DNA of 64,000 nucleotides from Sinohyriopsis cumingii (Eukaryota > Mollusca > Bivalvia > Unionida > Unionidae). The position numbers and the translations under genes were made by a program. The DNA lies in assembly GCA_028554795.2 (NCBI GenBank), contig JAPYKE020000537.1, forward strand, positions 395,372 to 459,371, written 5' to 3'. The notes under the pieces were generated by a model that saw nothing but the letters and a program-made list of their open reading frames with translations, searched no databases and was not told where the DNA came from. Shown here in pieces: positions 140 to 63,996 of this stretch (position 1 is the first letter of the stretch; the number at the start of each line of letters is the position of its first letter).

Positions 140-172
140 GGCATTGGGAGCGCGGCAAGGACGATTGGCTCG
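140..172 (+). CDS. micro-exon copy 1, type I (33 nt, 11 codons)
   Basis: Seen: a 33-nt segment that follows TAATTTCAG and is followed by GTAAGT, so both splice signals fit the GT-AG consensus. GC content is 22/33 against roughly one third in the surrounding DNA. The length is divisible by three, so inclusion or skipping keeps frame. Read in frame 0 it gives GIGSAARTIGS. Read with phase-1 introns (first two bases complete a codon begun by the preceding exon) it gives HWERGKDDWL followed by a split codon. The same segment recurs eleven more times in the window at one copy per large repeat. There is no start codon, signal peptide or terminal exon here, so it must be an internal exon if it is one. 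I do not recognise the protein. Alternative: a chance splice-like motif copied with the repeat. Against that, the splice sites and length survive while type A and B flanks have diverged. Confidence 0.7.
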
Positions 173-550
173 GTAAGTTCAAATGTATCCTCAGCATTTA
201 AGAATTATTTATGCTTGGTCATATTTTGATTGCTTGTCTGTCGACTGTTCTATTTAAAACCTTGATCAAAACACCCTCTCCGTTAAAATGTCAGAATTCA
301 AAAGGTCAAGCATATCATATCAAACTTAAACAGAATTGTGATTTTAGTCTTTGTACTGATTTCCAAACTGAACATCTCACTGATAATGTAAAGGACACAA
401 ATATTGCTAATACTGCTAATACAGCTACAGCTACTTATACTGCTACTAATCCTGCTACTATTAAAATAACACATAAATAAATGAATATACAAACACCAAA
501 TTAGACCATGAATCTAAACAATATCGTAAGAAATGAGATTTAGCTTTCAG

Positions 551-583
551 CATTAACTATATGCCTCGAGTACTGGAAGAAAG
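551..583 (+). other. candidate second micro-exon of type A repeats (copy 1)
   Basis: A second 33-nt interval follows a TTTAGCTTTCAG acceptor and is followed by GTAGGT. Read with phase-1 introns it is open (LTICLEYWKK); in frame 0 it has an immediate TAA. The first 31 bases are identical in type A and type B repeats although flanks differ. In type B the donor has changed from AAGGTAGGT to ATGTTAAGT, which would make a 32-nt, frame-breaking exon with a poor donor. It may be a lost exon, an A-only exon, or coincidence. Confidence 0.3.
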
Positions 584-853
584 GTAGGTCATATTTATTG
601 TGAATAGCTCCTTTTACTAGCTTACAAATATAAACCCTCTCAATCAGTTGGATCCTTCACGGATAGAAAAAAAGAAATGGGCAGCCAAGAGTATTGTCCT
701 TTAATTTATAACCATTATAAATATAACATTACATTCACTGACAGATATAATGTCAACTCTGCAATGAACAAAGGTGTACCAAAACAACGATATTTTCAGC
801 AGATTAACATATTTCTGGAGCACGTAATAGGTATGCCTCCTCGGATGATCCAT

Positions 854-876
854 ATAATAATAATAATAATAATAAC

Positions 877-911
<35 letters not shown>
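854..911 (+). repeat. (AAT)n microsatellite, type A form
   Basis: A run of AAT units with one AAC interruption. Equivalent tracts lie near 6143-6210 (longer, one interruption) and 11437-11483 (uninterrupted). Long poly-Asn, poly-Ile, poly-Leu and poly-Tyr frames across these tracts are artefacts of the repeat. Confidence 0.9.
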
Positions 912-912
<1 letters not shown>

Positions 913-1221
913 GATGGTAAGGTCGTAAACGCAAAAGAAAAGAAAATATCAGAAGAAGCAGAAGCAATACATACTTTATTATGTCCAGAATAAAGAAAAA
1001 AGATTGCTCAGTTATACAAGGTTCGAGGTTTGCCCCGCATTGGAACATATAAATATACACACATAGAGAAATTATAGACCATGGCTAGGTTCAAGGATGT
1101 ATGTCAAATTCACAGTGACATTTGAGTTTTAATAGTAATAAGAACAAGCATTCTTTATTTCAGACAGGATAATTCATAGATTTAAACTAAAATAAGGATA
1201 TAAAAGAAAAATATTGTCAAC

Positions 1222-3040
1222 TTAAAAGATCTTATATATCTTATGTACAAGTATAAGATAAAATGACTGCAATGGATTGTTCCCTGAATGGTTTGGAATA
1301 AAATTAAGTAGCACATATACAGATAAACTTGTTCCTTCTGCTAAATTACGAGAATTTAAATGAATGGCATAGTTCCAAAGAGATTGCAATATTCTGTTCT
1401 TACTGTTTGATATTCCTGTCATCATTGAGTGTGTGTGTATGATTTGGATTTATAAAGTAGCTTTAAGAATTTTGCAGTCATATCGCTTCGATGTTTGCGG
1501 TGTGACAGTTTATAGTGATTTCTTGCAATGGGGCATCATGCCGCAGACAGGTAGTGTGATGTTCCACCCAGTTACATTATCCTGACACCAAGCCGACCAA
1601 TCGTAACACTAACATCTTAATGCTGAGCGACAAGAAAGGCAGCTATTAATACCATTTTTGTAAGTCTTTGGTGTGACCCGGCCGAGGATATATCACACGT
1701 GCTGACTACTAGGCCACTGGAGCGGGCTGTCATCATTGACAACACTATATTGTCTTTATTATTACTATTGCTTCAACAAAATGAAACCATTGCAATTTAC
1801 AAACACGTTGGTGACACTGTTCCATCAAAGATGGTCTAATAGAAACAGAAAAGTATTATTAAGACCAATGACAAGTTTCGCTTCACATATTTTTCACGGT
1901 TTGTACATAGAGGAGCAGAAGACATTGTGTATTTATAAGATTTGAATAATATCATTTTGATATATAATGAAAATTCTTCAGGTTGCGTTGATGCACAAAA
2001 ATCTGTAATGTCACATCAAATTTTCAATATCTGACCACTTAGATTTGGAATGAAGACCCAAATATGTAGAACAGTTCAAATACGTTAGAACATTGCCGTT
2101 AAAATGTACAGGGAGAGGAGATAGTGATTTGAAAGAAGTTGACTGAACGATCATTCATGCTGATTTTTGTGTATTACAGATGTAATCATTCTTTAATGCG
2201 AATTATTCACATATCTTTAACAATATCCTTAAATCAGCGATTAAAGGATTTATTAATGATATTTCATCAGTAAGACTATAGTTGTTAAGAAGCAACACAT
2301 TTGGTGGCAAACATAATGACACATAACACTGACCCGGCTTACGACTTAACTCGTATATGCATAATATTAAATAGCAAAGGTAAATACCGCACCCTCGACA
2401 TACCCCACTGGTTACATGGAAAGTGCTGGATATTACACTTCTCCATTTGACATAGTACAACTGTTTGCTATACCAGTTAACTAAAGTATGAACTATTTAG
2501 ACAGGTATTTTAGTATCAATGAATGATTCAAAGAGTATATAATGACTAAGTCTATGAAATGCCCTACTAGCGTCTAAAAAGCAAACAAACACTGATTCCC
2601 TGTTCTAAATAATAGTTAACAGTTTCCTTAAATGCATATAGGCACAAATCTGCAGATTGTCTTTTTTCTGAAAAACCTAACTGATTATCAGAGATTGTGA
2701 CTTCACATCTTTGCAGGATGATGAATTCAAATATCTTTGAAATATTATGCGTTAAGCGATATAGGTCTACATATATTTTTTGTCCTTCAGGTTACCAATT
2801 TTGCTTTTTAGTAGCGGTCTAATCGTAGATATAATGAATTCACCGGAAATCATATGACGTACGAAGATACCATTAAATGAAATCATCAAAAGCACATGAA
2901 GTCTAGTATTTTAAAATTTAAAATGTTCCACAGGTAAGAAAATCTGATCCAGGACATTTACCTCGTTTTTGTCTTTGTTATTGCACATTGGATCTCAAAA
3001 AGTGTGATTACCTGAACGCAAAAAAAATGCTGGAAGAACA
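1222..3040 (-). pseudogene. LINE reverse transcriptase relic in repeat 1 (SINE-interrupted)
   Basis: Read on the minus strand, fragments follow the order of a CR1/Jockey-type LINE ORF2. Just left of 3040 comes the fingers region (EHFK-like, then LLMISFNGIFV), then IRPLLKSKIGNLKD and ISKIFEFIILQ. The palm follows, with VTSGVCRG in the place of the usual VTNGVRQG. SLTDEISL then stands where YADD is expected, so the catalytic motif is lost. A C-terminal piece near 1400-1222 (MMTGISNSKNRIL) lies beyond the SINE. Frameshifts and stops are frequent. No endonuclease domain was recognised. It is dead and antisense to the micro-exons. Confidence 0.8.
1429..1726 (-). mobile_element. tRNA-derived SINE in repeat 1 (298 bp) with 13-bp target duplication
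   Basis: Flanked by the perfect direct repeat CTGTCATCATTGA at 1416-1428 and 1727-1739. On the minus strand the tRNA-like head is at the right end, next to GGCCACTGGAGCGG, and the tail at the left ends in an (AC)n run. The central part (ACACCAAGCCGACCA, then CTTTGGTGTGAC-CGGCCG) resembles a SINE body I associate with bivalve genomes. Part of the tRNA-like head is deleted compared with type B. It lies inside the LINE relic, whose reading resumes on the other side. Confidence 0.75.
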
Positions 3041-3044
3041 CTCT

Positions 3045-3445
3045 TCTTATTTGGTTTTTAAAACTTTAGTGAGTCTATAAAATGATTTTTCCATATGTCG
3101 CGTATATTATTTTGACAATAGCTCGCATCGATGCAAATTGGTAGTTTATTGGAAGTTGTGGTATTTCGTTTTACAATATAAAGTTATTGCTTATATGTAT
3201 TTTGTGTTGAAAAGTTACCCTTTTGCCAGCCATGTCACCCTATTATGTTTCTTCCTTGCTAACATTGGTATCAACTTGTCAACTATATTGCTTCTTTTTC
3301 AACAAGGTTGCCATGTCGATAACTATGCGGCTATTCGGCCATCCATGTTGCCTATTTAGCTACACACACTGCCATACTGCCAGATATGCTACCATACTGC
3401 CAGCCAGAAATAAACTAAATTGGTTAGAGTATTATATTGGATAAA
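3045..3445. other. conserved non-coding block right of the LINE, with a short direct repeat
   Basis: Found in every repeat (for example 19595-20015) and quite similar between A and B. It holds the direct repeat CCATACTGCCAG at 3372-3383 and 3392-3403. Two overlapping short frames exist on the + strand, but they sit in different frames of the same DNA and look like nothing known. It may be the 5' flank or leader of the LINE. No function assigned. Confidence 0.4.
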
Positions 3446-5200
3446 TGGTGACAAGAATATTCAAGCTCCAACATCCGATGAATGGTATTAAGGTATACAA
3501 ATAAACAGTACAAATAATGGCAAAATATGTCTAAATACAAGTTGCCTTTAGGTTTCTGCTTCGATATGAATTTTCAACGGTGATCTTAAGAACACGAACC
3601 ATTTTTACAAGCCAAACACAGTAGAATTGACCATATGCTAAAATGAAAAATAAAATTTAGAATGGATCAACCATGCGAGAGTTTCAAAGTATGGATTTCA
3701 ATGCAAATAGAACAAAGTAAAATATACAAGCATTCAACCATATGGATACAACAAACCACCTCTTTTAAGTAGGTACTACGTGACAAGATCTGAGTATCAC
3801 TTTGCCAATATGCATACTATGAAACGTAAAGATCCAAGTGCAAGGCCGAGGAGTATAGTACCAGTGAACATCATAAACTATGGCTATGTAGCTGATAAGG
3901 ACAGACACTAAGAAACACCTATTATTCGCTTAATGTTAGTCCAGGTTGAAAAATAACCAAACGCGCCTACTCTAAGTTACGATATATACACCTATGATCG
4001 CACTTGCTTATAATAAATCAAATGTACCACTAAGATGGTCTTATGTCTTACCTTATTCCGTGAGCCATACTGATATAGTTTTGTTGTATAGGATGCAACA
4101 TCATAGTTATTCTGAAAATGGTTAGAACATACTTTTGTAAACTTTCCTAAGATATATCAATGATGAGGTATTTGCAAAAATGTTCAAATCATTTCAGAAT
4201 AAACTACCAATGGTATATTAACCAGCAACATAAATAAGGAGAGAATAAAACTGGAAGATAATATTGAACTTATGCATTTTTTCAACGTTCAATTACCTTT
4301 TGAAATGAAAAGTTGCACTATCACACAAAACACGTATTTAGTTTTGAAGTATTTCATATTGGTTATTGTATGATTTCGATGTATCGTGCTATATCATCAT
4401 ATGAAATCAACTCGCAGATTATTCGATTCTCTTAATTACTTTGACCATGTTGTTCGAGACAAATGTCAAAGAAATACCAGAAAATGATTTTCTCCTGCAT
4501 CGCTTTAGAATAACGCATAACAGAACTATTTTTTAAGTATTAACCGCCTCAAATCAATGTCATACATAACTATTTTCAGTTCATCTAGAACAAAATAAAA
4601 CGACTCTACCTAATAAAAAGAATCTCAAAAGTCAGGTCTATTTTGTTCTTCTAATCTACCATTAAGTAACTAAAGTTAAAGGATCAAAATACTCATTCAA
4701 TTTTCATGTTATAAATCTACATAGATTATTATCCTATGGTGTATAGTAAAGAACTACATTTAGAACATTCCAAAATGTTGAATGAGAAAAGGGAAGAGGT
4801 TATTTTATATGGGATGAAAAATTAAAATTCCTATTAATACATTGTGTTTCTGATGAATCTTTAAACATAAAATCACGAAAGTATTTTCAAAAAGATTTAT
4901 ATATTAATAAACATATCATAAGGATATTAAGACTGTCATCACATATTTCTTGTACAGCTTAATGCACATAACATATTGAAAATATTTATAACTAATTGGA
5001 AATTCTGAAATAAGAACCTGCGATTCCTATATAGGCTTTCACAATGATGGGAAGCTGGATATTGTTGAATTAACATAGGTTTATTACTTTGTTATAAAGT
5101 TCTAACTTACATGCAACATATTACAGAATATTTGTATTTCAAACTTAGGCAAAGGAACTGCACACATCTACATGTACTGGCATGAAAAATCAAGTGTCAT
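3446..5200. other. AT-rich stretch with no recognised feature
   Basis: About 1.75 kb with dense stops in all frames. I see no splice-bounded open segment, no transposon ends and no RNA gene. The same holds for the matching stretch of every other repeat (for example 8745-10490 and 20013-21800). Confidence 0.6.
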
Positions 5201-5429
5201 CTTTTCAATAAAGTGAAATTATACAAATAATAGTAATAATAATAATAATAGCAAAAATACTGATAATTATAAAAATAATTGTAATAATTGCGATATTAAT
5301 AATAATCATAATCGCGCTAAATCCAGAGAAAGAATAATGAGTAGCTTTCGAAAGAATACAGGTACAAGAAAAATGATGGTTATGTTTCATAGAAACACGA
5401 AATGAATTTCTTTCGTCTTATAATTTCAG

Positions 5430-5462
5430 GGCATTGGGAGCGCGGCAAGGACGATTGGCTCG
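5430..5462 (+). CDS. micro-exon copy 2, type I
   Basis: Identical in sequence to copy 1, with the same TAATTTCAG acceptor and GTAAGT donor. It lies 5290 bases downstream of copy 1. The intron between them carries no other convincing exon except the candidate at 551-583. Confidence 0.7.
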
Positions 5463-5840
5463 GTAAGTTCAAATGTATCCTCAGCATTTAAGAATTATTT
5501 ATGCTTGGTCATATTTTGATTGCTTGTCTGTCGACTGTTCTATTTAAAACCTTGATCAAAACACCCTCTCCGTTAAAATGTCAGAATTCAAAAGGTCAAG
5601 CATATCATATCAAACTTAAACAGAATTGTGATTTTAGTCTTTGTACTGATTTCCAAACTGAACATCTCACTGATAATGTAAAGGACACAAATATTGCTAA
5701 TACTGCTAATACAGCTACAGCTACTTATACTGCTACTAATCCTGCTACTATTAAAATAACACATAAATAAATGAATATACAAACACCAAATTAGACCATG
5801 AATCTAAACAATATCGTAAGAAATGAGATTTAGCTTTCAG

Positions 5841-5873
5841 CATTAACTATATGCCTCGAGTACTGGAAGAAAG
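5841..5873 (+). other. candidate second micro-exon of type A repeats (copy 2)
   Basis: Same sequence, acceptor and GTAGGT donor as the copy at 551-583. Confidence 0.3.
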
Positions 5874-6141
5874 GTAGGTCATATTTATTGTGAATAGCTC
5901 CTTTTACTAGCTTACAAATATAAACCCTCTCAATTAGTTGGATCCTTCACGGATAGAAAAAAAGAAATGGGCAGCCAAGAGTATTGTCCTTTAATTTATA
6001 ACCATTATAAACATAACATTACATTCACTGACAGATATAATATCAACTCTGCAATGAACAAAGGTGTACCAAAACAACGATATTTTCAGCAGATTAACAT
6101 ATTTCTGGAGCACGTAATAGGTATGCCTCCTCGGATGATCC

Positions 6142-6211
<70 letters not shown>

Positions 6212-6520
6212 GATGGTAAGGTCGTAAACGCAAAAGAAAAGAAAATATCAGAAGAAGCAGAAGCAATACATACTTTATTATGTCCAGAATAAAGAAAAAA
6301 GATTGCTCAGTTATACAAGGTTCGAGGTTTGCCCCGCATTGGAACATATAAATATACACACATAGAGAAATTATAGACCATGGCTAGGTTCAAGGATGTA
6401 TGTCAAATTCACAGTGACATTTGAGTTTTAATAGTAATAAGAACAAGCATTCTTTATTTCAGACAGGATAATTCATAGATTTAAACTAAAATAAGGATAT
6501 AAAAGAAAAATATTGTCAAC

Positions 6521-8343
6521 TTAAAAGATCTTATATATCTTATGTACAAGTATAAGATAAAATGACTGCAATGGATTGTTCCCTGAATGGTTTGGAATAA
6601 AATTAAGTAGCACATATACAGATAAACTTGTTCCTTCTGCTAAATTACGAGAATTTAAATGAATGGCATAGTTCCAAAGAGATTGCAATATTCTGTTCTT
6701 ACTGTTTGATATTCCTGTCATCATTGAGTGTGTGTGTATGATTTGGATTTATAAAGTAGCTTTAAGAATTTTGCAGTCATATCGCTTCGATGTTTGCGGT
6801 GTGACAGTTTATAGTGATTTCTTGCAATGGGGCATCATGCCGCAGACAGGTAGTGTGATGTTCCACCCAGTTACATTATCCTGACACCAAGCCGACCAAT
6901 CGTAACACTAACATCTTAATGCTGAGCGACAAGAAAGGCAGCTATTAATACCATTTTTGTAAGTCTTTGGTGTGACCCGGCCGAGGATATATCACACGTG
7001 CTGACTACTAGGCCACTGGAGCGGGCTGTCATCATTGACAACACTATATTGTCTTTATTATTACTATTGCTTCAACAAAATGAAACCATTGCAATTTACA
7101 AACACGTTGGTGACACTGTTCCATCAAAGATGGTCTAATAGAAACAGAAAAGTATTATTAAGACCAATGACAAGTTTCGCTTCACATATTTTTCACGGTT
7201 TGTACATAGAGGAGCAGAAGACATTGTGTATTTATAAGATTTGAATAATATCATTTTGATATATAATGAAAATTCTTCAGGTTGCGTTGATGCACAAAAA
7301 TCTGTAATGTCACATCAAATTTTCAATATCTGACCACTTAGATTTGGAATGAAGACCCAGATATGTAGAACAGTTCAAATACGTTAGAACATTGCCGTTA
7401 AAATGTACAGGGAGAGGAGATAGTGATTTGAAAGAAGTTGACTGAACGATCATTCATGCTGATTTTTGTGTATTACAGATGTAATCATTCTTTAATGCGA
7501 ATTATTCACATATCTTTAACAATATCCTTAAATCAGCGATTAAAGGATTTATTAATGATATTTCATCAGTAAGACTATAGTTGTTAAGAAGCAACACATT
7601 TGGTGGCAAACATAATGACACATAACACTGACCCGGCTTACGACTTAACTCGTATATGCATAATATTAAATAGCAAAGGTAAATACCGCACCCTCGACAT
7701 ACCCCACTGGTTACATGGAAAGTGCTGGATATTACACTTCTCCATTTGACATAGTACAACTGTTTGCTATACCAGTTAACTAAAGTATGAACTATTTAGA
7801 CAGGTATTTTAGTATCAATGAATGATTCAAAGAGTATATAATGACTAAGTCTATGAAATGCCCTACTAGCGTCTAAAAAGCAAACAAACACTGATTCCCT
7901 GTTCTAAATAATAGTTAACAGTTTCCTTAAATGCATACAGGCACAAATCTGCAGATTGTCTTTTTTCTGAAAAACCTAACTGATTATCAGAGATTGTGAC
8001 TTCACATCTTTGCAGGATGATGAATTCAAATATCTTTGAAATATTATGCGTTAAGCGATATAGGTCTACATATATTTTTTTGTCCTTCAGGTTACCAATT
8101 TTGCTTTTTAGTAGCGGTCTAATCGTAGATATAATGAATTCACCGGAAATCATATGACGTACGAAGATACCATTAAATGAAATCATCAAAAGCACATGAA
8201 GTCTAGTATTTTAAAATTTAAAATGTTCCACAGGTAAGAAAATCTGATCCAGGACATTTACCTCGTTTTTGTCTTTGTTATTGCACATTGGATCTCAAAA
8301 AGTGTGATTACCTGAACGCAAGAAAAATGCTGGAAGAACACTC
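6521..8343 (-). pseudogene. LINE reverse transcriptase relic in repeat 2
   Basis: Same relic. Here the N-terminal part stays open from 8195 to 7866 and shows IRPLLKSKIGNLKDKK, then NISKIFEFIILQ, NQLGF and the CLYAFKETVNYY stretch, matching fingers motifs of this LINE group. The palm piece with the decayed LTDE motif is at 7759-7502. Confidence 0.82.
6728..7025 (-). mobile_element. SINE in repeat 2 (298 bp)
   Basis: Same insertion as in repeat 1; the 13-bp target duplications are at 6715-6727 and 7026-7038. Confidence 0.75.
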
Positions 8344-10721
8344 TTCTTATTTGGTTTTTAAAACTTTAGTGAGTCTATAAAATGATTTTTCCATATGTCG
8401 CGTATATTATTTTGACAATAGCTCGCATCAATGCAAATTGGTAGTTTATTGGAAGTTGTGGTATTTCGTTTTACAATATAAAGTTATTGCTTATATGTAT
8501 TTTGTGTTGAAAAGTTACCCTTTTGCCAGCCATGTCACCCTATTATGTTTCTTCCTTGCTAACATTGGTATCAACTTGTCAACTATATTGCTTCTTTTTC
8601 AACAAGGTTGCCATGTCGATAACTATGCGGCTATTCGGCCATCCATGTTGCCTATTTAGCTACACACACTGCCATACTGCCAGATATGCTACCATACTGC
8701 CAGCCAGAAATAAACTAAATTGGTTAGAGTATTATATTGGATAAATGGTGACAAGAATATTCAAGCTCCAACATCCGATGAATGGTATTAAGGTATACAA
8801 ATAAACAGTACAAATAATGGCAAAATATGTCTAAATACAAGTTGCCGTTAGGTTTCTGCTTCGATATGAATTTTCAACGGTGATCTTAAGAACACGAACC
8901 ATTTTTACAAGCCAAACACAGTAGAATTGACCATATGCTAAAATGAAAAATAAAATTTAGAATGGATCAACCATGCGAGAGTTTCAAAGTATGGATTTCA
9001 ATGCAAATAGAACAAAGTAAAATATACAAGCATTCAACCATATGGATACAACAAACCACCTCTTTTAAGTAGGTACTACGTGACAAGATCTGAGTATCAC
9101 TTTGCCAATATGCATCCTATGAAACGTAAAGATCCAAGTGCAAGGCCGAGGAGTATAGTACCAGTGAACATCATAAACTATGGCTATGTAGCTGATAAGG
9201 ACAGACACTAAGAAACACCTATTATTCGCTTAATGTTAGTCCAGGTTGAAAAATAACCAAACGCGCCTACTCTAAGTAACGATATATACACCAATGATAG
9301 CACTTACTTATAATAAATCAAATGTATCACTAAGATGGTATTATTTCTTACCTTATTCCGTGAGCCATACTAATATAGTTTTGTTGTATAGGATGCAACA
9401 TCATAGTTATTCTGAAAATGGTTAGAACATACTTTTGTAAACTTTCCTAAGATATATCAATGATGAGGTATTTGCAAAAATGTTCAAATCATTTCAGAAT
9501 AAACTACCAATGGTATATTAACCAGCAACATAAATAAGGAGAGAATAAAACTGGAAGATAATATTGAACTTATGCATTTTTTCAACGTTCAATTACCTCT
9601 TGAAATGAAAAGTTGCACTATCACACAAAACACGTATTTAGTTTTGAAGTATTTCATATTGGTTATTGTATGATTTCGATGTATCGTGCTATATCATCAT
9701 ATGAAATCAACTCGCAGATTATTCGATTCTCTTAATTACTTTGACCATGTTGTTCGAGACAAATGTCAAAGAAATACCAGAAAATGATTTTCTTCTGCAT
9801 CGCTTTAGAATAACGCATATCAGAACTGTTTTTTAAGTGTTAACCGCCTCAAATCAATGTCATACATAACTATTTTCAGTTCATCTAGAACAAAATAAAA
9901 CGACTGTACCTAATAAAATGAATCTCAAAAGTCAGGTCTATTTTGTTCTTCTAATCTACCATTAGGTAACTAAAGTTAATGGATCAAAATACTCATTCAA
10001 TTTTCATGTTATAAATCTACATAGATTATTATCCTATGGTGTATAGTAAAGAACTACATTTAGAACATTCCAAAATGGTGAATGACAAAAGGGAAGAGGT
10101 TATTTTATATGGGATGAAAAATTAAAATTCCTATTAATACATTGTGTTTCTGATGAATCTTTAAACAAAATCACGAAAGTATTTTCAAAAAGATTTATAT
10201 ATTAATAAACATATCATAAGGATATTAAGACTGTCATCACATATTTCTTGTACAGCTTAATGCACATAACATATTGAAAACATTTATAACTAATTGGAAA
10301 TTCTGATATTAGAACCTGCGATTCCTATATAGGCTTTCACAATGATGGGAAGCTGGATATTGTTGAATTAACATAGGTTTATTACTTTGTTATAAAGTTC
10401 TAACTTACATCCAACATATTACAGAATATTTGTATTTCAAACTTAGGCAAAGGAACTGCACACATCTACATGTACTGGCATGAAAAATCAAGTGTCATCT
10501 TTTCAATAAAGAGAAATTATACAAATAATAATAATAATAATAGCAAAAATACTGATAATTATAAAAATAATTGTAATAATTGCGATATTAATAATAATCA
10601 TAATCGCGCTAAATCCAGAGAAAGAATAATGAGTAGCTTTCGAAAGAATACAGGTACAAGAAAAATGATGGTTATGTTTCATAGAAACACGAAATGAATT
10701 TCTTTCGTCTTATAATTTCAG

Positions 10722-10754
10722 GGCATTGGGAGCGCGGCAAGGACGATTGGCTCG
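10722..10754 (+). CDS. micro-exon copy 3, type I
   Basis: Third and last type I copy, identical to copies 1 and 2. The intron that follows starts as type A and ends as type B sequence, so this is the last exon before the change of repeat family. Confidence 0.7.
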
Positions 10755-11132
10755 GTAAGTTCAAATGTATCCTCAGCATTTAAGAATTATTTATGCTTGG
10801 TCATATTTTGATTGCTTGTCTGTCGACTGTTCTATTTAAAACCTTGATCAAAACACCCTCTCCGTTAAAATGTCAGAATTCAAAATGTCAAGCATATCAT
10901 ATCAAACTTAAACATAATTGTGATTTTAGTCTTTGTACTGATTTCCAAACTGAACATCTCACTGATAATGTAAAGGACACAAATATTGCTAATACTGCTA
11001 ATACAGCTACAGCTACTTATACTGCTACTAAACCTGCTACTATTAAAATAACACATAAATAAATGAATATACAAACACCAAATTAGACCATGAATCTAAA
11101 CAATATCGTAAGAAATGAGATTTGGCTTTCAG

Positions 11133-11165
11133 CATTAACTATATGCCTCGAGTACTGGAAGAAAG
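11133..11165 (+). other. candidate second micro-exon of type A repeats (copy 3)
   Basis: Same 33-nt sequence. The acceptor is TTTGGCTTTCAG, the G variant seen in most type B repeats, and the donor is still GTAGGT. Confidence 0.3.
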
Positions 11166-11433
11166 GTAGGTCATATTTATTGTGAATAGCTCCTTTTACT
11201 AGCTTACAAATATAAACCCTCTCAATTAGTTGGATCCTTCACGGATAGAAAAAAAGAAATGGGCAGCCAAGAATATTGTCCTTTAATTTATAATCATTAT
11301 AAATATAACATTACATTGACTGACATATATAATGTTAACTCTGCAATGAACAAAGGTGTACCAAAACAACGATATTTTCAGCAGATTAACATATTTCTGG
11401 AGCACGTAATAGGTATGACTCCTCAGATGATCC

Positions 11434-11485
<52 letters not shown>

Positions 11486-11794
11486 GATGGTAAGGTCGTA
11501 AACGCAAAAGAAAATAAAATATCAGAAGAAGCAGATGCAATACATACTTTATTATGTCCAGAATAAAGAAAAAAGATTGCTCAGTTATACAAGGTTCGAG
11601 GTTTGCCCCGCAATGGAACATATAAATATACACACATAGAGAAATTATAAACCATGGCTAGGTTCAAGGATGTATGTCAAATTCACAGTGACATTTGAGT
11701 TTTAATAGTAATAAGAACAAGCATTCTTTATTTCAGACAGGATAATTCATAGATTTAAACTAAAATAAGGATATAAAAGAAAAATATTGTCAAC

Positions 11795-16740: not shown

Positions 16741-16775
<35 letters not shown>

Positions 16776-46757: not shown

Positions 46758-46798
<41 letters not shown>

Positions 46799-51200: not shown

Positions 51201-51999
51201 CTATTTTCAGTTCATCTAGAGCAAAATAAAACTACTCTACCTAATAAAATGAATCTCAAAAGTCAGGTCTGTTTTGTTCTTCTAATCTACCATTAGGTAA
51301 CTAAAGTTAAAGGATCAAAATACTCATTCAATTTTCATGTTATAAATTTATATAGATTATTATCCTATGGTGTATAGTAAAGAACTACATTTAGAATATT
51401 CCAAAATGGTGAATGAGAAAAGGGAAGAGGTTATTTTATCTGGGATGAAAAATTAAAATTCCTATTAATACATTGTGTTTCTGATGAATCTTTAAACATA
51501 AAATCACGAAAGTATTTTCAAAAAGAATTATATATTAATAAACATATCATAAGGATATTAAGACTGTCATCACATATTTCTTGTACAGCTTAATGCACAT
51601 AACGTATTGAAAACATTTAAAGCTAATTGGAAATTCTGAAATAAGAACCTGTGATTCCTATATAGGCTTTCACAATGATGGGAAGCTGGATATTGTTGAA
51701 TTGACATAGGTTTATTACTTTGTTATAAAGTTCTAACTTACAGGCAACATATTACTGACTATTTGCATTTCAAACCTAGGCAAAGGAACTGCACACAACT
51801 ACATGTACCGACATTAAAATCCAATTGTCATCTTTTCAAAAAAGAAAACATATGCAATAATAATAATAATAATAATAAAAATCGCACTAAATCCAGAGAA
51901 GGAAGAAAGAGTAACTTTCGAATGAATACAGGTAGAAGGAAAATGATGGTTATGTTGCATAGAGACACGAAATGAATTGTTTTCGTTTTATGTTTTCAG

Positions 52000-52032
52000 A
52001 GAGTTGGGAGCGCGTTAAGATCGATTGGCTCG
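52000..52032 (+). CDS. micro-exon copy 10, type II
   Basis: Identical to copies 4 and 9, with TTTTATGTTTTCAG acceptor and GTAAGT donor. Confidence 0.7.
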
Positions 52033-53216
52033 GTAAGTTCCAATGTATCCTCAGCATTTAAGAATTATTTATGCTTGGTCATATTTTGATTTGCTTGGCT
52101 GGCGACTGTTCTATTTGAAACCTTGATCAAAACACCCTCTCTGTTAAAATGTCAAAATTCTAAATGTCAATCATATCATATCAAACTTAAAGAAACAGAA
52201 TTGTGATTTTAGTCTTTGTACTGATTTCTAAACGGAACATCTCTCTGATAAAGTAAAAAACACAAATATTGCTAATACTGCTAATACAGTTACAGCTACT
52301 TATACTTCTACTAATCCTGCTACTATTAAAATAACACATAAATAAATGAATATACAAACACCAAATTAGACCATGAATCTAAACAATATCGTAAGAAATG
52401 AGATTTAGCTTTCAGCATTAACTATATGCCTCGAGTACTGGAAGAATGTTAAGTCATATTCATTGTGATTAGGGCCTTTTACTAGCTGAAAAATGTAGAC
52501 GCTCTCAATTAGTTGGCTCCTTCACGGATAGAAAAATAGAAATGGGAGCCAAGAGAATTGTCCTTTAATTTATAACCATTATAAACGTAACATTACATTC
52601 ACTGACAGATATACCGTTAACTCTGCACTGATCAAAGGTGTAACAAAACAACGATATTTTCACCAAATGAATATATTTCTGGCGCACGTAATATGAACAA
52701 ATGTACTCAGATGAACCATATAACAACAGTAGTAATAATACTAAAAGTAGTTGTAATAATAATAATAATAATAATAATAAAGTTGATGAGGTCTTAAACG
52801 CAAAAGAAGATAAAATATCAGACGAAGCAGAAGCAACAAATACTACTATTTTGTCCAGAATAAAGACAAAAGATTGCTCAGGTATACAAGGTTCGAGGGT
52901 TGCCCCGGAATGGAACATATAAATATACACACATAGATAAATTATAAAACATGGCTAGGTTCAAGGATGTATGTCAAATTCACAGTGACATTTGAGTTTT
53001 AATAGTAATAAGAATAAGCATTCTTTATTTCAGACAGAATAATTCATAGATTTAAATTAAAATATGATATAAAAGAAAAGTATTGTCAACATAAAAGATT
53101 ATATTTATATCTTATGTACAAGTATAAAGATACAAGGACAACAATGAATTGTGCCCTAAATGGTTACAAATAAAATTTAGTAGTACATATAAACAGAAAC
53201 ATGTTCCTTCTGCTAA

Positions 53217-53869
53217 GGTGGCGCTCACCAGATAATATGTACTTTTGAGAGAGTGACGTATGTAAGGTGAAGTAGTTCACATTTAAAACATGCACAGTGT
53301 AGAGAATGTTTGCATACCTCTATGCTACATTAATGTAAAGTGGATGATATTTCTTTTGGATATTGTACTTTTGGAAATTTGACATGATTTAAGCACACTG
53401 CTAACTAAAATGACTGCTCCCTTGTGTTAAAAAAATCAGTCTGAATTAGTCTAAAGTACTCTATACATAGCAGCTATTAAAATAGGGAAATTGAAATTTG
53501 CGAGACTAGACAATACCAGCTTCTAAAAGTGCAATGAATGAATTACCAAATATATAAAATGTAAAAAAAGTTATCGGCTCTTTTTTATACAATTTACCTC
53601 TGAAGTTCAGGAAGTGAAAATGACCAAGTAGAGCTAGCACTTTTTTGAAAGGTGCACATTTGAAGTAAGGCCAAGCTGTATACTCTATAACCCATAGTAC
53701 ACCCATCAATCATACACCAAAATAAAGGGAATTAAAGGTTCTTTGCATTATACCTAAGATATACAAGGTCTTTTTTAAATAGCCAGTATAACCAGTGAGG
53801 AAAGCCGGGGACATTCTTTTTCTTTAAAATCCTAACCCTATGCAAAATGCGAAACTGTTTAGCGCCACC
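53217..53869. mobile_element. MITE in repeat 10 (653 bp)
   Basis: Same element, ends and TAA flanks intact. Confidence 0.85.
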
Positions 53870-53956
53870 TAAATTATGAAACGTTAAAAGAATGCCATAA
53901 TTCCGAAGAGATTTCCATATTCTGATTTTACTATTTGATATTCTTGTCATCATTGA

Positions 53957-54277
53957 GTGTTTGTGAATGTTTTGGTTTTTTAATGTAGCTTTAACAATTT
54001 TGCAGTCATATCGCTTCGATGTTTGCGGTGTGATAGTTTATAGTGATGTCTAGCAATGGGGCATCATGCCGCAGACATGTAATATGATGTCCCACCAAGA
54101 TACATTTTCCTGACACCAAGCCGACCAGTCATAACACTAACCAATTAATGTTGGGCGCCAAGCAAGGCAGCTGTTAGGTTCATCTTTGTAAGTCTTTGGT
54201 ATGACTCGGCCGGGTATCGATCACAAAACCTCCCGCAATCGAGGCAGACCTTATAATCGCTAATCCTCTGGAGCGGT
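53957..54277 (-). mobile_element. SINE in repeat 10 (321 bp)
   Basis: Type B form, same insertion point. Confidence 0.74.
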
Positions 54278-57200
54278 CTGTAATCATAGAGAATACGCTC
54301 CTTATTATTACTTCATCAAAACTGAATACATTTTAATTTACAAACACGTTGGAGGCACTGTTCCATCTAGGAAGGTCTAATAGCAAAATAAAAGTATTAT
54401 TAAGATCAATAACTGGTTTTCGTATCACATATTTGTTACAGTCTGTCCATAGAGGAGCAGAATACATTGTGCAGCAATCAGATTTGAATACTATCATTTT
54501 GATATATAAGGAACAATTCTTCAGTTTGCGTCGATGCATCCTTTTTTGAGTGCACAAACATCTGTAATGCCTCATCAAATTTTCATTATCTGACCAATTG
54601 GATTTTAAATAAAGGCCCAAATATGTATAACTGTTGAAATACGTTAGAAAATTGCCGTTAAAATGTACAGGAGGAGGAGGAGATAGTAATTGGAAAGAAG
54701 TTGAAAGAACGAACATGCATGCTGATTTTTGTGTATTACAGACGTAATCATTCTTTAATGCGTATTGTTCACATATCTTTAATAATATCCTTTAATCTGC
54801 GATTAAAGGACTTATTAATGACATTTCATCAGTAAGACTACAATTGTTAAGAAACAACACATTTGGTGGCAGACCTAATGCCACATAACACTGACCCAGT
54901 TCACGATTTAACTCGTATATGGATATGTTAAATAACAAAGGGTAAGTACTCGCCCCCACCCCAACCCCCACCTTACCCCACTGGTTACATGGAATGCACT
55001 GGATATTACACTTCTCCATTTGACATAGTACAACCGTTTGCAATACCAATTAACTAAAGTATGAACTATGTAGACAGGTATTTTAGTATCAGTGAATGTT
55101 TCAAAGAGTATATAATGACTAAGTCTATGAAATGCCCTACTAGCATCTAAAAAGCAAACAAACACTGATTCCATGTTCTAAATAATAATTAACAGTTTCC
55201 TTAAATGCATATAGGCACAAATCTGCAGATTGTCTTTTTTCTTAAAAACCTAACTGATTACCAGAGATTGTGACTTCACATCTTTGCAGGATGATGAGTT
55301 CAAATATCTTTGAAATAATATTAGTTAAGTGATATAGGTCTACATATACGTTTTGTCCTTCAGGTTACCAATTTTGCTTTTTAGTAGCGGTCTAATCGTA
55401 GATTTTGTGAAATCAGCTGGAATCACGTTACGTACGAAGATATCATTAAATGAAATCATCAAAAGCACATGAAGTCTAGTATTTGAAAATTTAAAATGTT
55501 CCACATGTAACAGAATCTGATCCTGGACATTTACCTCGTTTTTTGTCTTTGTTATTGCACATTGGATCTCAAATAGTGTGATTACCTCAACGCAAGAAAA
55601 ATGCTGAAAGAACACGCTTCTTATTTGGTTTTTAACACTTTAGTAAGTCTATTAAATGATTTTTCTATATGTCACGTGTATTATTTTGACCATAGTTCCC
55701 ATCAATGCAAATTGGTAGTTTATTGGAAGTTGTGGTATTTGGTTTTACAATATAAAGTTATTGCTTATATGCATTTTGTGTTGAAAAGTTGCCCTCTTGC
55801 CAGCCATGTCACCCTATTATGTTTCTTCCTTGCTAACATTGTTATCAACTTGCCAACTATATTGTTTCTTTTTCAACAAAGTTGCCATGTCGATAACTAT
55901 GTGGCTATTCGGCCATCCATGTTGCCTATTTAGCTACACACACTGCCATACTGCCAGGTATGCTACCATACTGCCAGCCAGAAATAAACTAAATTGGTTA
56001 GAGTATTATATTGGATAAATGGTGACAAGAATATTCAAGCTCCAACATCCGATGAATGGTATTAAGGTATACAAATAAACAGTACAAATAATGGCAAATA
56101 TGTCTAAATATAAGTTGCCTTTAAGTTTCTGCTTCGATATGATTTTTCAACGGTATCTAAAGAACACGAACCATTTTTACAAGCCAAACACAGTAGAATT
56201 GACCATATGTTAATATGAAAAATAAAATTTAGAATGGATCAACCATGCGAGATTTTCAAAGTATGGATTTCAATGCAAATAGAACAAAGTAAAATATACA
56301 AGCATTCAACCATATGAATAAAACAAACAACCTCTTTTAAGTAGGTACTACGTGACAAGATCTGAGTATCACTTTGCCAATATGCATCCTATGAAACGTA
56401 AATATCCAAGTGCAAGGCCGAGGAGTGTAGTACCAGTGCACGGCCGAGGAGTATAGTCCCAGTGCACTTCATAAACTATGGCTATGTAGCTGATAAGGAC
56501 AGACACTAAGAAACACCTATTGTTCGCTTAATGTTAGTCCAGGTTGAAAAATAACCAAACGCGCCTACTCTAAGTAACGATATATACACCTATGATCGCA
56601 CTTACTTATAATAAATCAAATGTATCACTAAGAAGGTATTATTTCTTACCTTATTCCGTGAGCCATACTGATATAGTTTTGTTGTATAAGATACAACGTC
56701 ATAGTTATTCAGAAAATGGTTAGAACATACCTTTGTAAACTTTCCGAAGACTCCAGCTTCAATAAATATATAAATGGTGAGGTATTTGAAAAAATGTTCA
56801 AATCATTTGAGAATAAACTACGAATGGTATATTAACCAGCAACACACATAAGGTGAGAATAAAAATGGGAGATAATATTGAACTTATGAATTTTTTCAAC
56901 GTTCAATTACCTCTTGAAATGAAAAGTTGCACTATCACACAAAACACGTATTATGTTTTGAAGTATTTCATACTGGTTATTGTATGATTTCGATGTATCG
57001 TGGTATATGTTCATATGAAATCAACTCGCAGATTATTCGATTCTCTTAATTACTTTGACGATGTTGTTCCAGACTAATGTCAAAGAAATAACACAGAATG
57101 ATTTTCTTCTGCATAGCCTTAGAATGACTCATATCAGAACTGTGGTTTAAGTGTTAACCGCTTGAAATGAATGTCATATATAACTATTTTCAGTTCATCT

Positions 57201-57982
57201 AGAGCAAAATAAAACTACTCTACCTAATAAAATGAATCTCAAAAGTCAGGTCTGTTTTGTTCTTCTAATCTACCATTAGGTAACTAAAGTTAAAGGATCA
57301 AAATACTCATTCAATTTTCATGTTATAAATTTATATAGATTATTATCCTATGGTGTATAGTAAAGAACTACATTTAGAATATTCCAAAATGGTGAATGAG
57401 AAAAGGGAAGAGGTTATTTTATCTGGGATGAAAAATTAAAATTCCTATTAATACATTGTGTTTCTGATGAATCTTTAAACATAAAATCACGAAAGTATTT
57501 TCAAAAAGAATTATATATTAATAAACATATCATAAGGATATTAAGACTGTCATCACATATTTCTTGTACAGCTTAATGCACATAACGTATTGAAAACATT
57601 TAAAGCTAATTGGAAATTCTGAAATAAGAACCTGTGATTCCTATATAGGCTTTCACAATGATGGGAAGCTGGATATTGTTGAATTGACATAGGTTTATTA
57701 CTTTGTTATAAAGTTCTAACTTACAGGCAACATATTACTGACTATTTGCATTTCAAACCTAGGCAAAGGAACTGCACACAACTACATGTACCGACATTAA
57801 AATCCAATTGTCATCTTTTCAAAAAAGAAAACATATGCAATAATAATAATAATAATAATAAAAATCGCACTAAATCCAGAGAAGGAAGAAAGAGTAACTT
57901 TCGAATGAATACAGGTAGAAGGAAAATGATGGTTATGTTGCATAGAGACACGAAATGAATTGTTTTCGTTTTATGTTTTCAG

Positions 57983-58015
57983 AGAGTTGGGAGCGCGTTA
58001 AGATCGATTGGCTCG
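57983..58015 (+). CDS. micro-exon copy 11, type II
   Basis: Identical to copies 4, 9 and 10. The flanks are almost indistinguishable from those of copy 10. Confidence 0.7.
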
Positions 58016-59199
58016 GTAAGTTCCAATGTATCCTCAGCATTTAAGAATTATTTATGCTTGGTCATATTTTGATTTGCTTGGCTGGCGACTGTTCTATTTG
58101 AAACCTTGATCAAAACACCCTCTCTGTTAAAATGTCAAAATTCTAAATGTCAATCATATCATATCAAACTTAAAGAAACAGAATTGTGATTTTAGTCTTT
58201 GTACTGATTTCTAAACGGAACATCTCTCTGATAAAGTAAAAAACACAAATATTGCTAATACTGCTAATACAGTTACAGCTACTTATACTTCTACTAATCC
58301 TGCTACTATTAAAATAACACATAAATAAATGAATATACAAACACCAAATTAGACCATGAATCTAAACAATATCGTAAGAAATGAGATTTAGCTTTCAGCA
58401 TTAACTATATGCCTCGAGTACTGGAAGAATGTTAAGTCATATTCATTGTGATTAGGGCCTTTTACTAGCTGAAAAATGTAGACGCTCTCAATTAGTTGGC
58501 TCCTTCACGGATAGAAAAATAGAAATGGGAGCCAAGAGAATTGTCCTTTAATTTATAACCATTATAAACGTAACATTACATTCACTGACAGATATACCGT
58601 TAACTCTGCACTGATCAAAGGTGTAACAAAACAACGATATTTTCACCAAATGAATATATTTCTGGCGCACGTAATATGAACAAATGTACTCAGATGAACC
58701 ATATAACAACAGTAGTAATAATACTAAAAGTAGTTGTAATAATAATAATAATAATAATAATAAAGTTGATGAGGTCTTAAACGCAAAAGAAGATAAAATA
58801 TCAGACGAAGCAGAAGCAACAAATACTACTATTTTGTCCAGAATAAAGACAAAAGATTGCTCAGGTATACAAGGTTCGAGGGTTGCCCCGGAATGGAACA
58901 TATAAATATACACACATAGATAAATTATAAAACATGGCTAGGTTCAAGGATGTATGTCAAATTCACAGTGACATTTGAGTTTTAATAGTAATAAGAATAA
59001 GCATTCTTTATTTCAGACAGAATAATTCATAGATTTAAATTAAAATATGATATAAAAGAAAAGTATTGTCAACATAAAAGATTATATTTATATCTTATGT
59101 ACAAGTATAAAGATACAAGGACAACAATGAATTGTGCCCTAAATGGTTACAAATAAAATTTAGTAGTACATATAAACAGAAACATGTTCCTTCTGCTAA

Positions 59200-59852
59200 G
59201 GTGGCGCTCACCAGATAATATGTACTTTTGAGAGAGTGACGTATGTAAGGTGAAGTAGTTCACATTTAAAACATGCACAGTGTAGAGAATGTTTGCATAC
59301 CTCTATGCTACATTAATGTAAAGTGGATGATATTTCTTTTGGATATTGTACTTTTGGAAATTTGACATGATTTAAGCACACTGCTAACTAAAATGACTGC
59401 TCCCTTGTGTTAAAAAAATCAGTCTGAATTAGTCTAAAGTACTCTATACATAGCAGCTATTAAAATAGGGAAATTGAAATTTGCGAGACTAGACAATACC
59501 AGCTTCTAAAAGTGCAATGAATGAATTACCAAATATATAAAATGTAAAAAAAGTTATCGGCTCTTTTTTATACAATTTACCTCTGAAGTTCAGGAAGTGA
59601 AAATGACCAAGTAGAGCTAGCACTTTTTTGAAAGGTGCACATTTGAAGTAAGGCCAAGCTGTATACTCTATAACCCATAGTACACCCATCAATCATACAC
59701 CAAAATAAAGGGAATTAAAGGTTCTTTGCATTATACCTAAGATATACAAGGTCTTTTTTAAATAGCCAGTATAACCAGTGAGGAAAGCCGGGGACATTCT
59801 TTTTCTTTAAAATCCTAACCCTATGCAAAATGCGAAACTGTTTAGCGCCACC
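59200..59852. mobile_element. MITE in repeat 11 (653 bp)
   Basis: Same element, ends and TAA flanks intact. Confidence 0.85.
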
Positions 59853-59939
59853 TAAATTATGAAACGTTAAAAGAATGCCATAATTCCGAAGAGATTTCCA
59901 TATTCTGATTTTACTATTTGATATTCTTGTCATCATTGA

Positions 59940-60260
59940 GTGTTTGTGAATGTTTTGGTTTTTTAATGTAGCTTTAACAATTTTGCAGTCATATCGCTTC
60001 GATGTTTGCGGTGTGATAGTTTATAGTGATGTCTAGCAATGGGGCATCATGCCGCAGACATGTAATATGATGTCCCACCAAGATACATTTTCCTGACACC
60101 AAGCCGACCAGTCATAACACTAACCAATTAATGTTGGGCGCCAAGCAAGGCAGCTGTTAGGTTCATCTTTGTAAGTCTTTGGTATGACTCGGCCGGGTAT
60201 CGATCACAAAACCTCCCGCAATCGAGGCAGACCTTATAATCGCTAATCCTCTGGAGCGGT
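59940..60260 (-). mobile_element. SINE in repeat 11 (321 bp)
   Basis: Type B form, same insertion point. Confidence 0.74.
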
Positions 60261-63200
60261 CTGTAATCATAGAGAATACGCTCCTTATTATTACTTCATC
60301 AAAACTGAATACATTTTAATTTACAAACACGTTGGAGGCACTGTTCCATCTAGGAAGGTCTAATAGCAAAATAAAAGTATTATTAAGATCAATAACTGGT
60401 TTTCGTATCACATATTTGTTACAGTCTGTCCATAGAGGAGCAGAATACATTGTGCAGCAATCAGATTTGAATACTATCATTTTGATATATAAGGAACAAT
60501 TCTTCAGTTTGCGTCGATGCATCCTTTTTTGAGTGCACAAACATCTGTAATGCCTCATCAAATTTCATTATCTGACCAATTGGATTTTAATAAAGGCCCA
60601 AATATGTATAACTGTTGAAATACGTTAGAAAATTGCCGTTAAAATGTACAGGAGGAGGAGGAGATAGTAATTGGAAAGAAGTTGAAAGAACGAACATGCA
60701 TGCTGATTTTTGTGTATTACAGACGTAATCATTCTTTAATGCGTATTGTTCACATATCTTTAATAATATCCTTTAATCTGCGATTAAAGGACTTATTAAT
60801 GACATTTCATCAGTAAGACTACAATTGTTAAGAAACAACACATTTGGTGGCAGACCTAATGCCACATAACACTGACCCAGTTCACGATTTAACTCGTATA
60901 TGGATATGTTAAATAACAAAGGGTAAGTACTCGCCCCCACCCCAACCCCCACCTTACCCCACTGGTTACATGGAATGCACTGGATATTACACTTCTCCAT
61001 TTGACATAGTACAACCGTTTGCAATACCAATTAACTAAAGTATGAACTATGTAGACAGGTATTTTTAGTATCAGTGAATGTTTCAAAGAGTATATAATGA
61101 CTAAGTCTATGAAATGCCCTACTAGCATCTAAAAAGCAAACAAACACTGATTCCATGTTCTAAATAATAATTAACAGTTTCCTTAAATGCATATAGGCAC
61201 AAATCTGCAGATTGTCTTTTTTCTTAAAAACCTAACTGATTACCAGAGATTGTGACTTCACATCTTTGCAGGATGATGAGTTCAAATATCTTTGAAATAA
61301 TATTAGTTAAGTGATATAGGTCTACATATACGTTTTGTCCTTCAGGTTACCAATTTTGCTTTTTAGTAGCGGTCTAATCGTAGATTTTGTGAAATCAGCT
61401 GGAATCACGTTACGTACGAAGATATCATTAAATGAAATCATCAAAAGCACATGAAGTCTAGTATTTGAAAATTTAAAATGTTCCACATGTAACAGAATCT
61501 GATCCTGGACATTTACCTCGTTTTTTGTCTTTGTTATTGCACATTGGATCTCAAATAGTGTGATTACCTCAACGCAAGAAAAATGCTGAAAGAACACGCT
61601 TCTTATTTGGTTTTTAACACTTTAGTAAGTCTATTAAATGATTTTTCTATATGTCACGTGTATTATTTTGACCATAGTTCCCATCAATGCAAATTGGTAG
61701 TTTATTGGAAGTTGTGGTATTTGGTTTTACAATATAAAGTTATTGCTTATATGCATTTTGTGTTGAAAAGTTGCCCTCTTGCCAGCCATGTCACCCTATT
61801 ATGTTTCTTCCTTGCTAACATTGTTATCAACTTGCCAACTATATTGTTTCTTTTTCAACAAAGTTGCCATGTCGATAACTATGTGGCTATTCGGCCATCC
61901 ATGTTGCCTATTTAGCTACACACACTGCCATACTGCCAGGTATGCTACCATACTGCCAGCCAGAAATAAACTAAATTGGTTAGAGTATTATATTGGATAA
62001 ATGGTGACAAGAATATTCAAGCTCCAACATCCGATGAATGGTATTAAGGTATACAAATAAACAGTACAAATAATGGCAAATATGTCTAAATATAAGTTGC
62101 CTTTAAGTTTCTGCTTCGATATGATTTTTCAACGGTATCTAAAGAACACGAACCATTTTTACAAGCCAAACACAGTAGAATTGACCATATGTTAATATGA
62201 AAAATAAAATTTAGAATGGATCAACCATGCGAGATTTTCAAAGTATGGATTTCAATGCAAATAGAACAAAGTAAAATATACAAGCATTCAACCATATGAA
62301 TAAAACAAACAACCTCTTTTAAGTAGGTACTACGTGACAAGATCTGAGTATCACTTTGCCAATATGCATCCTATGAAACGTAAATATCCAAGTGCAAGGC
62401 CGAGGAGTGTAGTACCAGTGCACGGCCGAGGAGTATAGTCCCAGTGCACTTCATAAACTATGGCTATGTAGCTGATAAGGACAGACACTAAGAAACACCT
62501 ATTGTTCGCTTAATGTTAGTCCAGGTTGAAAAATAACCAAACGCGCCTACTCTAAGTAACGATATATACACCTATGATCGCACTTACTTATAATAAATCA
62601 AATGTATCACTAAGAAGGTATTATTTCTTACCTTATTCCGTGAGCCATACTGATATAGTTTTGTTGTATAAGATACAACGTCATAGTTATTCAGAAAATG
62701 GTTAGAACATACCTTTGTAAACTTTCCGAAGACTCCAGCTTCAATAAATATATAAATGGTGAGGTATTTGAAAAAATGTTCAAATCATTTGAGAATTAAA
62801 CTACGAATGGTATATTAACCAGCAACACACATAAGGTGAGAATAAAAATGGGAGATAATATTGAACTTATGAATTTTTTCAACGTTCAATTACCTCTTGA
62901 AATGAAAAGTTGCACTATCACACAAAACACGTATTATGTTTTGAAGTATTTCATACTGGTTATTGTATGATTTCGATGTATCGTGGTATATGTTCATATG
63001 AAATCAACTCGCAGATTATTCGATTCTCTTAATTACTTTGACGATGTTGTTCCAGACTAATGTCAAAGAAATAACACAGAATGATTTTCTTCTGCATAGC
63101 CTTAGAATGACTCATATCAGAACTGTGGTTTAAGTGTTAACCGCTTGAAATGAATGTCATATATAACTATTTCAGTTCATCTAGAGCAAAATAAAACTAC

Positions 63201-63963
63201 TCTACCTAATAAAATGAATCTCAAAAGTCAGGTCTGTTTTGTTCTTCTAATCTACCATTAGGTAACTAAAGTTAAAGGATCAAAATACTCATTCAATTTT
63301 CATGTTATAAATTTATATAGATTATTATCCTATGGTGTATAGTAAAGAACTACATTTAGAATATTCCAAAATGGTGAATGAGAAAAGGGAAGAGGTTATT
63401 TTATCTGGGATGAAAAATTAAAATTCCTATTAATACATTGTGTTTCTGATGAATCTTTAAACATAAAATCACGAAAGTATTTTCAAAAAGAATTATATAT
63501 TAATAAACATATCATAAGGATATTAAGACTGTCATCACATATTTCTTGTACAGCTTAATGCACATAACGTATTGAAAACATTTAAAGCTAATTGGAAATT
63601 CTGAAATAAGAACCTGTGATTCCTATATAGGCTTTCACAATGATGGGAAGCTGGATATTGTTGAATTGACATAGGTTTATTACTTTGTTATAAAGTTCTA
63701 ACTTACAGGCAACATATTACTGACTATTTGCATTTCAAACCTAGGCAAAGGAACTGCACACAACTACATGTACCGACATTAAAATCCAATTGTCATCTTT
63801 TCAAAAAGAAAACATATGCAATAATAATAATAATAATAATAAAAATCGCACTAAATCCAGAGAAGGAAGAAAGAGTAACTTTCGAATGAATACAGGTAGA
63901 AGGAAAATGATGGTTATGTTGCATAGAGACACGAAATGAATTGTTTTCGTTTTATGTTTTCAG

Positions 63964-63996
63964 AGAGTTGGGAGCGCGTTAAGATCGATTGGCTCG
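63964..63996 (+). CDS. micro-exon copy 12, type II, at the window edge
   Basis: Complete 33-nt copy with its acceptor. Only the first four donor bases (GTAA) fall inside the window. The array therefore continues beyond the right edge. Confidence 0.68.

Follow-up and report, generated by a model that had tools for sequence, protein, structure and literature searches.

Flatworm micro-exon genes (MEGs) are described as having short exons, mostly divisible by three in length, separated by introns that reach about 5 kb (PMC10526429, PMC7653826). A MEG of Schistosoma mansoni contains 10 to 20 short exons, mostly of 15 bp (PMC10526429); the class has been defined by micro-exons of fewer than 70 nt whose length is a multiple of three, with at least seven exons in the gene, half of them micro-exons, and a run of at least four (PMC7653826); and variant transcripts arise by exon skipping (PMC4015677). 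Here we analyse a locus of the bivalve Sinohyriopsis cumingii that holds at least 41 copies of a predicted 33-nt exon. It was detected in a stretch of 64,000 nucleotides, called the window below, which forms the last 64 kb (positions 395372 to 459371) of the 459-kb contig JAPYKE020000537.1 (C537). Like the MEGs of schistosomes and tapeworms, whose products are variable, the array combines short symmetric predicted exons with long introns, and skipping keeps the frame (PMC10526429, PMC7653826, PMC4015677); unlike them, it repeats one 33-nt exon together with its introns. The likeness is one of layout, and we claim no family membership for the array.

Two other kinds of gene invite comparison. 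Genes of the Dscam1 type contain large tandem clusters of interchangeable exons within one gene (PMC8042237, PMC6071210), and the aphid bicycle genes evolve rapidly and contain micro-exons (PMC9168663). The array resembles the former in being a large tandem cluster of interchangeable predicted exons and the latter in its rapid evolution and its predicted micro-exons. Dscam variable exons, however, are much longer, lie close together and are diverse, whereas those of the array measure 33 nt, are spaced by 4.5 to 7.9 kb and show little variety; bicycle genes are rich in micro-exons, and we know of no repeated-exon array in them. Davis et al. reportedly described in 1988, to go by the title, tandemly repeated 81-base exons of Schistosoma mansoni encoding a repeat; by that title both sets of exons are tandem, one of 81 bases and the other of 33. 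The kind of structure is already known, as micro-exon genes and as tandemly repeated exons, and what is unusual here is the copy number and the uniformity. The initial annotation of the window, made from its letters, had stated that no described system matches it, which was too strong to the extent that the sources cited above describe systems that come close. Among the matches listed in open-licence PubMed Central papers there was no report of a tandem 33-nt exon array of this scale.

Our preferred explanation, to which we assign a probability of roughly 60%, is that the 33-nt segments are coding exons of one large gene, in the form of symmetric phase-0 cassettes that would be joined as 11-residue repeats. 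All copies found in the genome (2.905 Gb in 1138 contigs) lie at one locus. A search with the exon-core pattern found 33 places, 29 on C537 and four on C11, a chromosome-sized contig; in viral contigs and in other genome contigs this DNA pattern was found 0 and 0 times. A 221-base query of exon plus flank gave 40 matches, 30 on the plus strand of C537 and 10 on the minus strand of C11, and none elsewhere in the genome at E ≤ 0.001, these counts being lower bounds; a query made from a diverged copy (D) likewise matched this locus only. With the copy cut by the contig end included, the array holds at least 41 copies, 31 on C537 and 10 on C11, or 42 if D is counted. On C537 the array begins near 290.1 kb and has an exon spacing of 5.27 to 5.31 kb up to the point where units of class A give way to units of class B; on C11 it occupies the minus strand between a gap of 100 N (81676867-81676966) and about 81.617 Mb, through B units and then C units of about 4.46 kb, and the spacing reaches 7.9 kb in one place and 7.6 kb in another. 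B units stand at the end of both contigs, from which we place C537, very probably, in the C11 gap. By arithmetic, at least about 0.5 kb of sequence is missing there, and any number of whole units could be missing as well. The array had been thought to leave the window at both ends; it does so on the left, and on the right the contig itself ends.

In the window, each of the twelve 33-nt segments lies directly 3' of TTTCAG, and 11 of them are followed directly by GTAAGT; the donor of the twelfth is cut at GTAA by the end of C537. The segments are thus present at the positions and on the one strand given in the initial annotation, with the acceptor and donor reported there. Self-comparison divided the 11 whole units of the window into classes A (n = 3) and B (n = 8), which are 97.8 to 100% identical within a class and about 91 to 93% identical between classes; one class-A unit, U3, is nearer to B than the other two A units are. 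Since these units are recent duplicates, the 12 exon copies count as a few independent sightings and not as 12. The splice signals of one unit alone are good, not beyond chance: with splice-site scoring matrices the exon scored 17.4 to 18.0, rival candidates on the minus strand reached 18.0 in a B unit and 18.7 in an A unit, and the best scores in 300 simulated units had a mean of 15.7 and a 95th percentile of 19.4. Such scores would be expected if a single ancestral unit had by chance carried a GC-rich 33-nt stretch flanked by AG and GT, which was then copied with the repeat; only one of the 300 simulated units, however, contained a small GC-rich candidate (score at least 17, GC at least 54%, length at most 60 nt), and the excess of change in the exon and its retention in D, both described below, leave us giving this account almost no credence. 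It is because of the comparison between unit types that the segment is lifted above chance.

The 41 array copies share only six sequences, or seven types with D (Table 1). CAG plus 33 nt was kept in 31 of the 31 array copies read, 30 of them in a scan that looked for CAG, 33 nt and a donor and whose value lies in its 30 finds being all the copies that the genome query places in the pieces of sequence read. The donor was GTAAGT in 29 of these 31 copies, GTAAGA in one (C537 369083) and cut in one; the remaining 10 array copies are known only by an exact match to the core pattern through GTAAGT. In D, the flanks are 31 to 33% different and contain nine indel runs, none of them inside the exon, and the copy keeps an acceptor AG (as AAG), exactly 33 nt, GTAAGT, and an open frame 0. 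At 33 nt, the 31 read copies and D fall, as predicted exons, below 70 nt and have a length that is a multiple of three, and the array forms, in DNA and across two contigs, a run of 41 predicted micro-exons. Frame 0 is the sole one of the three sense frames that is open in all seven types; as coding frames, frame 1 was ruled out by a stop in B1 and frame 2 (HWERGKDDWL etc.) by a stop in C3. Among the six close types, codons 1 to 3 and 5 to 8 vary while the last three are fixed. This distribution, together with the symmetry and the uniform length and phase of the exons, would also suit a mutually exclusive bank in the style of Dscam1, in which one of 41 exons would enter each transcript and give a constant protein a varying 11-residue face. 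With six sequences among 41 copies, 22 of them of type A, most of the choices would be redundant, and we consider a bank of alternative cassettes, which the initial annotation had also offered, quite improbable.

Table 1. Predicted 33-nt micro-exons, repeat units and exon types (positions in the window unless a contig is named)
Feature	Position	Strand	Frame-0 peptide	Remarks
Predicted micro-exon, type A	140..172	+	GIGSAARTIGS	
Predicted micro-exon, type A	5430..5462	+		
Predicted micro-exon, type A	10722..10754	+		
Predicted micro-exon, type B1	15988..16020	+	RVGSALRSIGS	
Predicted micro-exon, type B2	21995..22027	+	RVGSAFWSIGS	
Predicted micro-exon, type B2	28012..28044	+		
Predicted micro-exon, type B2	34026..34058	+		
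Predicted micro-exon, type B2	40016..40048	+		
Predicted micro-exon, type B1	46005..46037	+		
Predicted micro-exon, type B1	52000..52032	+		
Predicted micro-exon, type B1	57983..58015	+		
Predicted micro-exon, type B1	63964..63996	+		Contig ends four bases into donor
Three class-A repeat units	1..15848	+		5290, 5292 and 5266 bp; interpreted as an exon with flanking introns
Eight class-B repeat units	15849..63824	+		5981-6017 bp; about 656 alignment columns absent from A units
Exon type A			GIGSAARTIGS	GGCATTGGGAGCGCGGCAAGGACGATTGGCTCG; 22 copies (12 read, 10 by pattern and search)
Exon type B1			RVGSALRSIGS	8 copies
Exon type B2			RVGSAFWSIGS	5 copies
Exon type C			GIGSLLSSIGS	4 copies
Exon type C2			GIGSLLPSIGS	1 copy
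Exon type C3			GTESLLPSIGS	1 copy
Exon type D, diverged copy	C11 81610868-81610836	-	FIIRAFICIAP	Outside the 41 copies

The exon has changed faster than the DNA around it. By point estimate, exon divergence exceeded flank divergence in 20 of the 21 type pairs, and did so at Fisher p < 0.05 in 19 of 21, the pairs not being independent. On a tree of the six types built from the flanks there were 20 changes in 33 exon sites relative to 314 in 2031 other sites, a 3.9-fold difference (variable sites, Fisher p = 3.6e-5). Only 14 of 2032 alignment windows matched the exon in number of changes, and all 14 overlapped it, with starts 0 to 13 columns upstream. The exon changes were distributed over positions 1, 2 and 3 of the frame-0 codons as 10, 7 and 3, a distribution that points to amino-acid change rather than to constraint. 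On these results we take the segment to be, most likely, a protein-coding exon on which diversifying selection acts. They also bear on the view that the array is a macrosatellite, that is, once-exonic DNA amplified in tandem, its copies untranscribed or unused and the exon a passenger. The units are indeed homogenised like those of satellites, with six sequences common to 41 copies, and at the C11 edge the older units are fragmented; a passenger, however, should keep pace with its flanks, and this segment has changed 3.9 times as fast as the 2031 other sites while keeping its length and one frame, and a local hypermutation would have needed to spare the reading frame. We regard a macrosatellite as unlikely.

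Within the units, the initial annotation had seen nothing else that looked coding apart from decayed transposons, and our results agree with it. A test for a purifying signature, which covered stop-free, ungapped windows with at least five differences in one A-B unit pair, revealed no second coding segment (best p = 0.07, uncorrected); the open reading frames of the units are all short, some of them being pieces of transposons, and no Rfam family matched in the window at the gathering threshold. The outcome of that test and the shortness of the frames sit poorly with a tandem gene cluster, in which each unit of 5 to 6 kb would be a full small gene with its own promoter, first exon, 33-nt exon and last exon, as does the retention of the exon in C-type units that are about 0.8 kb shorter than those of type A. 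Such a cluster would account for the single exon per unit and for the use of one strand throughout, and tapeworm micro-exon genes are described as expanding by tandem duplication (PMC7653826); we nevertheless see very little chance that it is correct.

Several points weigh against the reading of the segments as cassettes of one large gene. The exons are predicted, from DNA sequence. First and last exons, a signal-peptide exon and a promoter were not found, no search having been aimed at first exons or a signal peptide, and a cluster of candidate exons downstream of the array, which is possibly the 3' end of the gene, is a candidate and a lead only. Two type pairs, C-C2 (exon 0.03, flank 0.05) and C-C3, had no significant excess of change in the exon; the direct A-B comparison was unremarkable, with 4 to 8% of windows equally variable; and the 26 splice-flank columns were not quieter than the rest, with six changes in 26 relative to a mean of 0.155 per site. 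The counts may be inflated, as the three changes by which B1 and B2 differ are confined to 4 nt and may reflect a single event, and recombination between units makes a single tree approximate. At the protein level, no homologue of the repeat peptide was found at E ≤ 10 (127-aa query, 7372 candidates), and a 308-aa query (7997 candidates scored) gave five weak matches only, with E values from 8.4e-3 to 0.19. The number of copies across the genome, their single locus and their rate of change together support the proposal of the initial annotation that these would be micro-exons of one larger gene.

If the cassettes are joined, the product would be made of short repeats. Thirty-three nucleotides are 11 codons with phase 0 on both sides, and any number of cassettes stays in frame. 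The hydrophobic moment of the joined peptides peaked at 98 degrees per residue, which would be the pitch of an 11-residue, three-turn helix, and this pitch was the largest harmonic in five of the five frame-0 types tested (C3 and D were left out). In shuffling tests the frame-0 types gave p values of 0.0028, 0.15, 0.057, 0.0004 and 0.0008, and their concatenation 0.015; the corresponding values for frame 2 were 0.32, 0.41, 0.034, 0.17 and 0.52, and 0.14. The p value was thus below 0.05 in three of the five frame-0 types and in the concatenation, not in the two B types, and in one of five in frame 2. A protein of 11-residue repeats, as had been suggested at the outset, is compatible with the symmetric 33 nt, with a frame 0 open in seven types, and with an 11-residue pitch in most of the types tested. 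Alpha-synuclein and type I antifreeze proteins consist of 11-residue (hendecad) helix repeats. The array peptide has the same period and, like them, a stripe of hydrophobic residues at about 98 degrees per residue; the resemblance goes no further than the period, the searches having shown no sequence relationship. Among the weak protein matches, the two that were inspected, including the best, whose tail has a similar period, look like low-complexity glycine/serine tails, and were rejected as homologues in favour of convergence or composition. A search of PDB gave one match per frame (E 0.99 and 0.82), and a Pfam match to Collagen_mid (E 0.0014, below cut-off) was taken as composition.

We propose that each predicted cassette consists of 11 codons and its own intron of 4.5 to 7.9 kb, and that unequal crossing-over between the near-identical introns would have raised the number of copies to at least 41 with the reading frame intact. 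Splicing of the pre-mRNA would join many or all cassettes in a row. The encoded protein, secreted or membrane-active, would then repeat the 11-residue pattern xIGSxxxxIGS, with three helical turns per exon, and exon skipping or a change in copy number would alter the length of the protein and keep its register. Diversifying selection may act on the first two and the middle codons, as for a surface, secreted or recognition protein. Transcription, splicing with joint inclusion of many exons, the helix, secretion and a selective agent are the parts of this proposal that we infer. A more specific version, in which the at least 41 interchangeable exons encode one continuous hendecad helix whose length is tuned by germline crossing-over and exon inclusion while selection diversifies its exposed residues, is tentative, and we consider it unlikely; if true, such a gene would generate diversity by micro-exon copy number, unlike MEGs and Dscam.

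If transcription and splicing treat it as a single gene, the array by itself would span about 230 kb and encode about 450 repeat residues from at least 41 near-identical exons, each intron being about 135 to 240 times as long as an exon. Such a gene would put the ordered recognition of tiny repeated exons by the spliceosome to a severe test, and would allow the length and sequence of a protein to vary without a break in frame. The faster change of the exon relative to the surrounding DNA suggests a rapidly diversifying, repeat-built protein. Gene finders with a minimum exon length or repeat masking would probably miss the array, and similar arrays may therefore be overlooked in other large AT-rich genomes.

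Downstream of the array, a cluster of candidate exons in phase 0 was observed on the minus strand of C11 (81592952-81585039). It comprises candidates for VLFHIHFHAP and EQDMETYESE (splice score 21.5), a 120-nt candidate, and LYVTPEEEEEEDELK; EQDMETYESE and LYVTPEEEEEEDELK are acidic peptides. Counts of candidate exons in sense and antisense orientation were 8 vs 4 in the 43 kb downstream of the array and 4 vs 5 in the 50 kb of C537 upstream of it, where the scan covered internal exons alone. On the far side of the C11 gap, in the stretch with a Polinton-like element, they were 5 vs 0, so that the sense excess is not specific to the downstream side of the array. Two of the eight downstream candidates share a donor, one lies in an apparent dispersed repeat, and the joined downstream candidate pieces had no match in Pfam.

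Traces of older units and of mobile elements were seen in and around the array. At its 3' edge on C11, decayed older units at 81616.5, 81613.9 and 81612.3 kb keep parts of the downstream intron, and no 33-nt exon with a proper acceptor was seen in them. A TTGCCA-rich stretch (window 19780-20184) recurs, about 67 to 83% identical, in relics at both edges of the array. In a B unit, a reverse transcriptase remnant on the minus strand (window 18902-19171; RVT_1, E 0.0011, below cut-off) has been amplified along with the array, and by our own reading the adjoining minus-strand frames look like the same element. A comparison with 20 repeat motifs (cephalopod short interspersed element, transfer RNA (tRNA)-like) gave one 10-base tRNA-like match and no other. 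On the 17-kb contig C1138, positions 1-6000 hold two long frames that resemble a Penelope-type element in a code 5 reading, with no tRNA there. An uninterrupted 1092-aa frame at C11:81563821-81567097 reads like the polyprotein of a retrotransposon without long terminal repeats (endonuclease and reverse transcriptase). The stretch that adjoins the array gap (C11:81676967-81690600) is a Polinton-like element, with frames matching an adenovirus-type protease (Peptidase_C5, E 0.0094) and an integrase (rve, E 5.7e-5), both below cut-off, and an AAA domain (E 2.8e-8); a fourth scanned frame was without a match, and neighbouring frames have, to our eye, the look of a capsid, a polymerase and a homing endonuclease. 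Frames like those of this element also occur, in pieces, at 240-290 kb of C537.

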